From Reyranella sp. CPCC 100927 (GTDB lineage Bacteria > Pseudomonadota > Alphaproteobacteria > Reyranellales > Reyranellaceae), in contig NZ_VOHA01000002.1 of NCBI RefSeq assembly GCF_007859315.1, forward strand, positions 620,001 through 684,000: DNA of 64,000 nt, read 5' to 3'. This document shows positions 10,761 to 13,431 of this stretch, in pieces. Both the position numbers and the translations under genes were made by a program. Within the stretch, counting starts at the first letter, position 1. Each line of letters opens with the position of its first letter. The notes under the pieces were generated by a model, which was not told the origin of the DNA, ran no database searches, and saw nothing but the letters and a program-made list of their open reading frames with translations.

Positions 10761-10781
10761 GCCACGCTTGCGCGGCGTGGC
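10761..10781 (+). terminator. possible hairpin after the GMC gene
   Basis: Seven-base arms GCCACGC and GCGTGGC enclose a short loop 10 bases after the GMC stop codon. There is no T-run, so it is at best a weak or Rho-assisted terminator. It separates the GMC gene from the trpS leader. Confidence 0.35.
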
Positions 10782-10804
10782 GTTCCGTGGCATCTGCCTT
10801 TGCC

Positions 10805-10855
10805 ATGGCTGACGTCGTTGCCCTGACAATGCTTCGTTGGTGGCGCTCCTCGTAG
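10805..10855 (+). CDS. candidate Trp leader peptide of the trpS attenuator
   Basis: A 16-codon frame from ATG 10805 to TAG 10853 reads [16 protein letters not shown]. It carries two adjacent Trp codons (10838-10843) just before the first arm of a hairpin. Tandem Trp codons in a short open frame 115 bp upstream of a tryptophanyl-tRNA synthetase gene are what a ribosome-mediated attenuator needs. No good Shine-Dalgarno site precedes the ATG, so the peptide may be leaderless, as trpL of Sinorhizobium is known to be. Existence of the peptide is inferred. Confidence 0.7.
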
Positions 10856-10919
10856 GAGCGGCACGTCAGCCCTTGTGTGCGACCGTTGCCGCCGTGATCA
10901 GGCAGGCACAGGTCGTTTT
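10838..10919 (+). promoter_or_regulatory. tryptophan-responsive transcription attenuator upstream of trpS
   Basis: Three mutually exclusive pairings can be drawn. Protector: CGCTCCT 10844-10850 with AGGAGCG 10854-10860. Antiterminator: GCGGCA 10858-10863 with TGCCGC 10887-10892. Terminator: CGACC/GGTCG 10880-10915 with inner TGCC/GGCA and GCC/GGC pairs, followed by TTTT. The antiterminator uses bases of both others. A ribosome stalled at the Trp codons 10838-10843 would mask the first protector arm, free 10858-10863 and open the terminator; a ribosome reaching the stop codon would mask it and allow termination. This is the classical trpL logic, worked out by eye and not folded by program. Confidence 0.68.
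10880..10919 (+). terminator. attenuator terminator hairpin of trpS
   Basis: Stem CGACC (10880-10884) with GGTCG (10911-10915), an internal 2x2 loop, TGCC (10887-10890) with GGCA (10905-10908), a bulged A, GCC with GGC, and loop GTGATCA; 12 pairs in all, followed by TTTT at 10916-10919. It lies 51 bp before the trpS start, so if formed it would stop transcription before the gene. Confidence 0.6.
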
Positions 10920-10970
10920 CCCCGACAGTACTTCCGTTCGCGGCGGCTCCCTTTCCTTGGAGACGTCACG

Positions 10971-12044
10971 ATGTCCTTCAATACCCGACCCGTCATCCTG
11001 ACCGGCGACCGGACCACCGGTCCGCTGCACCTGGGCCATTACGTCGGCTCGCTGAAGAACCGGGTTGCCCTGCAGGAGTCGCATCGCCAGTTCCTGCTGC
11101 TGGCCGACACCCAGGCCCTGACCGACAATGCCCACGACCCCGGCAAGGTGCGCAGCAATGTGCTGGAGGTGGCGCTCGACTATCTTGCTGTCGGCATTGA
11201 TCCGGCGAAGACGACCATCTGCGTGCAATCCGGCCTGCCGGCGCTGGCCGAGCTCACCACGCTCTACATGAACTTCGTCACCGTGGCGCGCCTGGAGCGC
11301 AACCCGACCATCAAGGACGAGATCCACGCCCGCGGCTTTGGCCGCGACATCCCGGCCGGCTTTCTCTGTTATCCCGTCTCCCAGGCTGCGGACATCACGG
11401 CCTTCAAGGCCACCGTCGTGCCGGTCGGCGAGGACCAGCTGCCCCTGATCGAGCAGACGAACGAGATCGCGCGCCGCATCAACCGCCAGATCGGTCGCGA
11501 TGTGCTGCCGGAGGCCTGCGCCTTGATTCCCGAGATCGGCCGACTGCCGGGCATCGACGGCACCGCCAAGATGAGCAAATCGCAAGGCAACGCGATCCCC
11601 CTGTCGGCCTCACCCGATCTGATCCGCGAGTCGGTGCGTCGCATGTACACCGATCCCAACCACCTGCGGGTTTCCGATCCGGGGACCGTCGAGGGCAATG
11701 TCGTCTTCACCTACCTCGACGCGTTCGATGCCGACCGCTCCGCCGTCGACGCGCTCAAGGCGCACTACCGCCGCGGCGGCTTGGCGGACATGGCGGTGAA
11801 GCGGCGGCTGGAGGACATACTGCAGGCTCTCCTCGAGCCGATCCGCGCGCGCCGCGCGGCACTCGCCCGTGAGCCTGGCTACGTGCTGGACGTGCTGCGC
11901 CAGGGTACGTCGCGGGCCCGGCAGGCGACGCAGGCGACCCTGGACGAGATCCGGCACGGCCTGGGCCTGTTCACGTTCGAATTCGACGCCGTCCCGCGGA
12001 GTGCCGCCGACGGATCGCCCCTCTATCCATCGTCGCGCCCGTGA
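10971..12044 (+). CDS. trpS: tryptophanyl-tRNA synthetase, probably an auxiliary form
   Basis: Class I aminoacyl-tRNA synthetase of 357 residues that charges tRNA-Trp. The HIGH-type motif is HLGH (residues 20-23, within [18 protein letters not shown]) and the KMSKS motif is exact (200-204). The opening [18 protein letters not shown] resembles TrpRS of Firmicutes and of auxiliary synthetases, not the usual proteobacterial form with FSGVQPTGxLHLGNYLG (recalled family knowledge). Start ATG 10971 has GGAG upstream. It is preceded by a candidate Trp attenuator and followed after 18 bp by an MFS exporter gene, so the pair is probably one inducible operon. A second, housekeeping trpS would be expected elsewhere. 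Confidence 0.93.
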
Positions 12045-12062
12045 CCGCGATGGATACCCGCC

Positions 12063-13283
12063 ATGTCCCTGTCTCCCTTCCTGCGCCTGCAGGCAGCCAC
12101 CGTCGGCGTTCACGCCGCCGACCAGCTGGCGCTGGCGGCGCTGCCGCTGACCGCCGTCCTGCTGCTCGACGCCGGGCCGGGGCTCGTCGGCATCCTGGTC
12201 GCAATCCAGGGTGCAGCGTGGCTGCTGGCATCGATGCCGGCGGGGATCATCGTCGATCGCCTGACGGCACCCGTGGTGCTGCTCGCCGCACCCGTGCTGT
12301 CGCTGGCCGCCGCCGTGGTCGCCCTGACCGCCGCCGTCGCCGATCTGCTGTGGCCGCTGGCTGGTGCCGCCTTCATCGGCGCGGCCGGTACGGTGTCGTT
12401 CGTGCTGGCGGCGACCGCCGTGGTCCCGCGCCTGGTGTCACCGCAACAGCTGCCGGCCGGCAACGCACGCCTGGAGCTTGGACGTGCCGCAGCGACCCTG
12501 GCGGCCCCCTTCATCGTCGGCGAACTGGCGACGCGCCTGTCGCCGACCTGGGGCTACGCACTCGCCATCGTGGCTGCGCTGTTCGCCGTCGTCTGGCTTG
12601 CAGGGCTCGACCGGCGCGCCATCGCCATCCCGCCGTCGACGCGCCAACCGATCCTCGCCGCCATCCGTGAAGGCGCCGCGTTCGTCCTGCGCCAGCGCCT
12701 GCTGCGCGGCATCGCGCTCTGCGCCATCTTCTGGAACATGGCGTTCTTCGCGCTGTGGGCCATCTTCGTACCGTTCGCCCTGAAGGTGCTCGCGCTTGAC
12801 CCGCGCCAGACCGGCGCCGTGCAGATGGCCTACGGCGCCGGCCTGATCGTGGGCGCACTATCGGGTGGTGCGCTGCTGACCCGCCTGCCACCGAACGTGA
12901 CCCTGCTGTTCGGCCCCGGCGTGTCGGCCATCGCCGGCATCCTGCTTCTGCTGTCGGTCCAGACGCACGGAACGATCCTGCCGGCAATCGCGTACTTCCT
13001 GGTCGGCTTCGGTCCCATGCTGTGGCTGATCTGCCAGACCACGGTGCGCCAGCTCGTCACGCCGCCCGAACTGCTGGGCCGCGTCAATGCCACGATCCAG
13101 GTCGCGATTTACGGCATGCGTCCGATCGGCGCCCTGTTGGGCGGCTGGCTGAGCGCCACGTTCGGCTACGAGGTGGCACTTTTCACTGTCGCGGTGGGCT
13201 TCGCTGCCTCGTTCAGTGTCGTGCTGCTGACACCATTGGTGAGGCTGCGCACCATGCCGACCCAGGTTGCCTCGCCCTGCTAG
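12063..13283 (+). CDS. MFS exporter in operon with trpS
   Basis: A 406-residue protein with about 12 hydrophobic helices and the MFS loop motif GIIVDRLTAPVVL between helices 2 and 3. It resembles the DHA3/EntS-like drug or siderophore exporters. It starts 18 bp after trpS, so it should be co-transcribed and share the Trp attenuator. An efflux pump next to an auxiliary TrpRS suggests export of a TrpRS-directed inhibitor or Trp analogue (inference). The substrate is unknown. Confidence 0.85.
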   Translation: MSLSPFLRLQAATVGVHAADQLALAALPLTAVLLLDAGPGLVGILVAIQGAAWLLASMPAGIIVDRLTAPVVLLAAPVLSLAAAVVALTAAVADLLWPLAGAAFIGAAGTVSFVLAATAVVPRLVSPQQLPAGNARLELGRAAATLAAPFIVGELATRLSPTWGYALAIVAALFAVVWLAGLDRRAIAIPPSTRQPILAAIREGAAFVLRQRLLRGIALCAIFWNMAFFALWAIFVPFALKVLALDPRQTGAVQMAYGAGLIVGALSGGALLTRLPPNVTLLFGPGVSAIAGILLLLSVQTHGTILPAIAYFLVGFGPMLWLICQTTVRQLVTPPELLGRVNATIQVAIYGMRPIGALLGGWLSATFGYEVALFTVAVGFAASFSVVLLTPLVRLRTMPTQVASPC

Positions 13284-13315: not shown

Positions 13316-13401
13316 GTCATCCCGAGCGCAGCGAGGGATCTTTTGATGCAGGCGCACCCGTGCATCACTTGCAGAAGATCCCTCGCTGTGCTCGGGATGA
13401 C
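13316..13401. repeat. intergenic inverted repeat, family A copy 1
   Basis: Arms 13316-13342 and 13375-13401 share the core TCATCCCGAGCGCAGCGAGG and its complement with few mismatches around a ~32-base loop. It lies between the convergent MFS and thioesterase genes and may act as a bidirectional terminator. Five more copies occur in the window (near 21806, 36736, 42174, 53818 and 56361). Confidence 0.85.
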
Positions 13402-13431
13402 AGCTGTATCAGTGACGCGTGATTCCGAGTA

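Follow-up and report, generated by a model that had tools for sequence, protein, structure and literature searches.

How might a bacterium keep a second tryptophanyl-tRNA synthetase (TrpRS) in reserve? In Streptomyces, an auxiliary, indolmycin-resistant TrpRS combines a second trpS gene with a leader containing Trp codons, and experiments on this enzyme and its Trp attenuator were reportedly carried out by Kitabatake in 2002 and by Vecchione and Sello in 2009 and 2010. Here we describe a locus in the 9.08-Mb genome of Reyranella sp. CPCC 100927. It lies in a stretch of 64,000 nucleotides (the window; contig C12, bases 620001-684000), and in it a short open reading frame (ORF) with tandem Trp codons precedes an auxiliary trpS. 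We consider it highly likely that a ribosome-mediated Trp attenuator silences this spare enzyme, which is of the TrpRS II type, as long as charged tRNA-Trp is ample. The locus resembles the Trp-attenuated spare TrpRS of Streptomyces and is a variant of it; unlike that system, the present loci occur in other phyla and have a leader of 15-16 amino acids (aa) that is probably leaderless, a start-codon stem and a further helix, 3:5. The accessible text of one study (PMC1262725) contains predicted attenuators at trpS in some Streptomyces. The initial annotation of this DNA knew of no described alphaproteobacterial example, and this is consistent with the literature matches listed, none of which dealt with trpS attenuation in alphaproteobacteria, subscription papers being mostly outside the search.

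Two other systems invite comparison. The best solved-structure matches of the window enzyme were 1yi8 (391.9 bits) and 2a4m (391.6 bits; named tryptophanyl-tRNA synthetase II), both of which we take to be the TrpRS II of Deinococcus radiodurans, and a TrpRS II copy on a Deinococcus plasmid has a leader with two adjacent Trp residues (WW), as in the window. TrpRS II is linked to nitric oxide synthase and radiation in the accessible text of PMC9437257. The rhizobial trpL/trpE(G) attenuator (peTrpL, rnTrpL) shares tandem Trp codons with the trpS leaders, but it governs trpE(G), whereas the window leader precedes trpS. According to the accessible text of PMC7298713, the rhizobial trpL transcript begins at the leader ATG, a feature that the window leader resembles by promoter-like spacing only, and the trpL peptide of B. 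japonicum is MSTAVAPARLWWRTS, whose C-terminal end is much like that of the trpS leaders. The 15-aa trpE(G) leaders of Vineibacter terrae and two Bradyrhizobium (L175, L176 and L177: MRNSALTARWWRPIQ, MSTAVRPSRLWWRTS and MSTVITPCRLWWRTS) also resemble trpS leaders; at E <= 0.01, the leader profile described below matched the trpS leader only, and no trpE(G) leader, in these three genomes (G470, G471 and G456).

The leader and the auxiliary synthetase

The elements of the locus are as follows.

10768-10796, plus strand: promoter-like pair, TTGCGC (10768-10773), 17-nt spacing, extended -10-like TGG-CATCTG (10788-10796)
10805-10855, plus strand: leader ORF with tandem Trp codons (10838-10843) and stop TAG (10853-10855)
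10807-10871, plus strand: start-codon stem P0, GGCUGACGU (10807-10815) pairing with ACGUCAGCC (10863-10871), predicted by folding
10844-10860, plus strand: helix 1:2, 10844-10850 pairing with 10854-10860, predicted by folding of a sub-stretch (6 of 7 pairs in the full fold)
10858-10892, plus strand: candidate antiterminator 2:3, GCGGCACG (10858-10865) pairing with CGUUGCCGC (10884-10892), one bulge, found by eye
10879-10919, plus strand: terminator-like hairpin 3:4, stem 10879-10916 into UUUU (TTTT 10916-10919), predicted by folding of a sub-stretch
10888-10947, plus strand: helix 3:5 of putative role, GCCGCCG (10888-10894) pairing with CGGCGGC (10941-10947), excluding 3:4, found by eye
10945-10962, plus strand: possible hairpin masking the Shine-Dalgarno (SD) sequence, GGCUCC / GGAG, SD at 10959-10962
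10971-12044, plus strand: trpS, auxiliary tryptophanyl-tRNA synthetase of TrpRS II type, 357 aa (TIGR00233, 232.9 bits, cut-off 176.75)

The tandem Trp codons, the hairpins and the TTTT were thus present where the initial annotation had placed them, as were trpS and, 18 bp after it, the ORF of a major facilitator superfamily (MFS) transporter at 12063-13283. The second trpS that it led us to expect was found on contig C1 and is 32-34% identical to the window trpS. On these comparisons, the window trpS is of TrpRS II type, nearer to the solved TrpRS II than to housekeeping TrpRS; the copy elsewhere in the genome is the housekeeping one and the window copy the auxiliary one.

The window is Vineibacter-like: the best named match of its TrpRS was that of V. 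terrae (L032; 85% identity). Of 76 genomes examined in the order, four contained a relative of at least 81% identity. In a draw of 385 genomes from the class, 37 gave a match at E <= 1e-60, seven at 70% identity or more (our own genome included) and 30 at 40-59%. Among named genomes, 524 relatives were detected, and the best 80, mainly from alpha- and betaproteobacteria, were kept. Since L003-L005 come from the same contigs as L032, L037 and L039, the 64 loci outside a Cupriavidus-type group represent 61 distinct ones, and leaders were defined at 57 of these alpha- and betaproteobacterial loci (the exceptions being L032, L101, L109 and L114). The leader of L036, whose ORF overruns the usual stop (24 aa), was assigned by hand. 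Leader starts were set at the ATG nearest to 16 codons, a choice that favours this length; 34 of the 57 leaders were 16 aa long, 18 were 15 aa and five had other lengths. WW occurred in 48 leaders, WWRS in 36, WCRS in six and a single W in three. The leader ORF of the relatives mostly ended about 105-135 nt 5' of the trpS start, and the alignments had a constant order of promoter-like box, ATG, Trp codons, GGAGCGG, GCCGCCG, hairpin, CGGCGGC, SD and trpS. Because homologous leaders are mostly 15-16 aa long and some 8 nt separate the end of the promoter-like pair from the ATG at 10805, this is the likelier start in the window, where the leader is probably a 16-mer; an 8-aa leader from the ATG at 10829 was judged less likely, since the homologs favour the longer form.

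The arrangement of a Trp leader before trpS was common in sequence among the loci fetched. A short ORF (5-30 aa) with WW within 330 nt upstream was found at 51 of the 64 TrpRS II loci outside the Cupriavidus-type group (49 of 61 when distinct loci are counted). None was found at 26 Cupriavidus-type sole copies, at 23 more distant copies (two with just 269 and 222 nt upstream) or at 27 housekeeping trpS loci, nearly all of one order. A WW leader is more frequent before TrpRS II than expected by chance. Methylocystis suflitae (G489; L109, L150, L173) had two leader matches, each before a TrpRS II copy, the match of one copy having an internal TGA.

From the position of the promoter-like pair, the leader transcript is predicted to start at or adjoining the leader ATG, giving a leaderless leader mRNA. 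A -10-like box, defined by a list of words chosen by hand after the leaders had been viewed, was present in 45 of 51 leaders, and in 44 of these it ended 8-12 nt before the ATG. The window, leader included, contained no Rfam family at gathering score; when six loci were compared with Rfam at E <= 1, the sole match was COG3860, below threshold and on the minus strand upstream of the leader.

Predicted alternative helices in the leader RNA

Folding of 10800-10930 gave -57.0 kcal/mol, compared with -46.9 (standard deviation 4.0) for shuffled sequences (z -2.5; 2 of 200 shuffles as low). Sub-stretches 10870-10925 and 10800-10875 gave z -2.8 and -2.9, and 10856-10925 and 10830-10890 were weaker (z -1.7 and -0.9). 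Covariation was assessed by comparing pairing with own and foreign partners in 29 non-redundant leaders, thinned from 50 to less than 80% similarity, with 20000 permutations within three groups; L061, L062, L067, L074, L098 and L106 were omitted by name, and L110 had no anchor word. Hairpin 3:4 gave z -5.7, helix 1:2 z -4.5 and P0 z -4.4 (each 0 of 20000 permutations), and helix 3:5 gave z -4.1 (1 of 20000), whereas eight control segment pairs ranged from -0.9 to +1.9. The SD hairpin gave z -2.0 (425 of 20000), the SD segment having been misplaced in L081 and L100 owing to a wrong trpS start. Without grouping, the rank order was unchanged (2:3, z -1.2; SD, z -1.3). At orthologous loci, Trp codons are conserved (WW in 48 of 57) and helices 1:2, P0, 3:4 and 3:5 covary, which supports the Trp attenuator of the initial annotation.

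The antiterminator differs in kind. Four core pairs of 2:3 were retained in 46-48 of 48 leaders with no compensatory change, and because the helix is near-invariant, covariation is unable to prove it. The case for helices 3:4 and 1:2 therefore rests on covariation, and that for the predicted antiterminator on conservation and geometry. RNAalifold on alignment A2 likewise returned the four core pairs alone, so the profile made from 48 leaders (R1) is largely a sequence profile. Of 30 genomes selected among TrpRS II holders, 28 had an R1 match at E <= 0.01; the other two were Cupriavidus with a sole trpS. Weak extra matches at E 0.002-0.006 occurred at G465:C18, G115:C1:2674783 and G484:C125, and the one of these that was inspected (L174) had no evident leader.

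How might these helices act? When tRNA-Trp is charged, the ribosome would reach the stop codon and cover segment 2, so that 3:4 ends transcription. When charging fails, through Trp shortage or inhibition of the housekeeping TrpRS, the ribosome would stall at the Trp codons and 2:3 would form, so that trpS and, in the window genome, probably also the MFS gene are made. Since segment 5 comes after the hairpin, 3:5 would form in read-through RNA only; helix 3:5 and the SD-proximal hairpin, which could likewise act on such RNA alone, suggest an added translational layer. The sequence-level basis of the attenuator, namely the tandem-Trp leader ORF, the predicted mutually exclusive helices, their conservation and the second trpS, can be read directly from the sequences compared.

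Spare and sole copies of TrpRS II

All 26 genomes of the leaderless Cupriavidus type had one trpS match. At least two matches, with split rows and fragments counted, were found in all 51 other genomes searched and likewise in our own genome; apart from the window locus there are 60 distinct non-Cupriavidus loci, and the counts cover 51 of them, the remainder being L035, L040, L072, L073, L075, L078, L079, L102 and L101. Among 30 alphaproteobacteria with more distant copies, whose genomes are mostly 0.6-2.1 Mb, 27 had one match and three a weak or fragmentary second one. No WW leader was present where TrpRS II is the sole trpS (0 of 26 and 0 of 23 loci), and TrpRS II is evidently able, to judge from these genomes, to serve as the only TrpRS. 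The C. basilensis-like L061 and L067 kept a WW leader together with a second trpS and a similar upstream gene end, and L074 combined a second trpS with a single-W leader.

A phylogeny of 110 proteins placed the Cupriavidus group within leader-bearing sequences; 60 rows were scored as leader, with W-C and single-W forms included, and every row belonging to neither the Cupriavidus-type nor the distant group was scored as auxiliary. Long branches make the position of the small-genome group unsure.

TrpRS II also occurs on plasmids. Ninety plasmid records, some chromosome-sized, matched the TrpRS at E <= 1e-60, and 24 records of a phage collection did so at E <= 1e-30. A short ORF with WW lay upstream in 11 of 17 plasmid-collection copies fetched, to which the Klebsiella records do not belong: those of Agrobacterium, Rhizobium, E. 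coli (two), Burkholderia, Variovorax, Photobacterium, Vibrio, Salinivibrio, Aeromonas and Deinococcus. The six without it were from A. baumannii (L196), S. epidermidis, E. faecium, L. crispatus, B. finegoldii and A. persici; of these, Acetobacter L218 has a single-W look-alike by eye. A T-box at the three Bacillota copies fetched (L214-L216) was considered and rejected, as these had neither an Rfam T-box at gathering score nor a WW leader; the same two features were not found at Bacteroides L217.

The transporter gene and competing explanations

The gene downstream of trpS is the following.

12063-13283, plus strand: MFS transporter, 406 aa (MFS_1 / PF07690, 87.8 bits, cut-off 33.4)

Because the gap is 18 bp, trpS and this gene are probably cotranscribed in the window genome; in V. 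terrae the gap is about 95 bp. The protein fell under the cut-offs of the TIGR00900 and EntS models, and PADLOC matched neither it nor the trpS product. Among 140 loci, a match to the window MFS was found at Vineibacter L001, L032 and L003 only (L032 and L003 being one contig), the comparison covering less than 1.2 kb after trpS at 4 of the 90 close loci. The next ORF was on the opposite strand at 26 of 31 loci, a weak count because the longest ORF was picked and L032, with its MFS gene on the same strand, was misread. We rejected the MFS gene as a member of a conserved unit, since among these loci it adjoins trpS in Vineibacter only. The initial annotation had proposed an attenuated unit of TrpRS and exporter; its attenuator and auxiliary trpS are supported, and the exporter as a component of the unit is not. 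With MFS adjacency so restricted and the V. terrae leader peptide lost, comparison of the loci does not support a conserved resistance operon of this composition. On a Staphylococcus epidermidis plasmid (L214), the gene after that of TrpRS II also encodes an MFS protein, annotated as a predicted efflux pump and without significant similarity to the window MFS.

Two active-site substitutions bear on inhibitors. Arg was present in 90 of 90 close copies (87 distinct loci) at a site where 25 of 27 housekeeping copies have Gln, the search pattern having matched a different place in the remaining two. At a second site, where the other copy of the genome has His, the window enzyme carries Gln. By alignment offset, these are Bacillus positions 9 and 43, of which position 9 presumably has a role at the Trp/indolmycin site. 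According to the accessible text of PMC4899734, H43N confers indolmycin resistance on TrpRS. The two substitutions fit an insensitivity of TrpRS II to inhibitors, and the spare enzyme could plausibly be of use by bypassing an inhibited TrpRS.

What weighs against an attenuator that governs a spare synthetase? Nine of the 57 leaders lack WW (six W-C, three single W), and of the loci without a defined leader, L109 lacks an ATG start and L114 shows just one W. A sigma-70 scan gave no promoter at the window leader, and the hairpin at 10879-10919 went unflagged in a simple terminator scan; just 8 of 51 leaders had five or more U among the 8 nt that follow the hairpin as folded (median 2; window 3). 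Covariation of 2:3 was z -0.6 (5178 of 20000), or -1.9 (608 of 20000) with narrower segments. With assumed ribosome footprints, mean SD accessibility was 0.31 with a stalled ribosome, 0.27 with one at the stop and 0.24 with none, and 10 of 57 leaders had a stalled value more than 0.1 above that at the stop, three having one lower by as much. The window gave 0.19 in both models. On these figures, a thermodynamic SD switch upon stalling was rejected. V. terrae lacks the 5' part of the leader and the leader peptide despite its two trpS genes and retained MFS gene, and the leader core persists there (profile E 1.1e-6). The residue changes are shared by sole-copy enzymes, and Arg is therefore a family feature. 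Finally, leader and auxiliary status changed jointly in two independent pairs only (sign test, p 0.5); this association was discarded as statistical proof, and for the same reason the link between leader loss and sole-copy status is suggestive.

Could the locus be an inducible resistance operon that pairs an insensitive TrpRS with efflux of a TrpRS inhibitor? We regard this as a real possibility, though probably not the correct one: the residue changes at the inhibitor site, the downstream MFS gene in the window and V. terrae, and the S. epidermidis plasmid with its dissimilar predicted pump favour it, but the window MFS is unmatched at the other loci compared, the V. terrae leader peptide is lost, no WW leader precedes the S. 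epidermidis copy and the residue changes are family-wide. It is also conceivable, if short of probable, that TrpRS II raises Trp charging when Trp is scarce, with drug resistance uninvolved. The patchy distribution (4 of 76 genomes of the order) and the 90 plasmid records, which fit a conditionally useful gene, stand against this explanation, whose attraction is that the attenuator codons sense Trp-tRNA rather than a drug and that the enzyme seems able to act alone. Control might instead be mainly translational, with 3:4, 3:5 and the SD hairpin switching ribosome access and little termination of transcription. We find this unlikely: the weak U-tracts and the covariation and downstream location of 3:5 agree with it, whereas some leaders have good U-tracts (U of 8: L041, 8; L112 and L116, 7; L096 and L115, 6), the SD hairpin covaries weakly and folding fails to reproduce an SD switch in most leaders.

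Within the attenuator reading, which we favour, a broader proposal is rather doubtful but worth stating. The leader may be a dual-output device travelling with TrpRS II in Pseudomonadota and Deinococcota, in which a stall both blocks termination (2:3) and frees the trpS ribosome site (3:5), and the switch may be discarded once TrpRS II displaces the housekeeping TrpRS, as in Cupriavidus, with the C. basilensis relatives as intermediates at the same kind of site. If the attenuator reading is right, a range of bacteria, among them some plasmid carriers from human samples, would hold a spare TrpRS that is activated when the main enzyme is blocked, which would be relevant to TrpRS as a drug target. 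It would also show a conditional spare becoming an essential enzyme and losing its switch, for which Cupriavidus and the C. basilensis relatives offer a testable contrast.

Some minor observations concern leaders elsewhere and the end of the MFS gene. R1 gave three weak extra matches in our own genome (E 0.13-0.62), including another leader, L142 (C45:344770-344853, minus strand), an attenuator-like leader MTGRRHHSRWYFTSLP before a GNAT acetyltransferase gene; a start-codon stem can be made out in it by eye, as can a terminator-like hairpin followed by a U-run. This acetyltransferase fell under every NCBIfam cut-off, and there was nothing on it among the literature matches listed. WYFT leaders preceded 9 of 12 GNAT homologs fetched (L202-L208, L212 and L213; L202 is our own copy). 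Right after the MFS gene, at 13318-13402 of the window, there is a long imperfect inverted repeat with arms of about 27 nt, and a stretch resembling it lies upstream of the L203 GNAT gene, both by eye.

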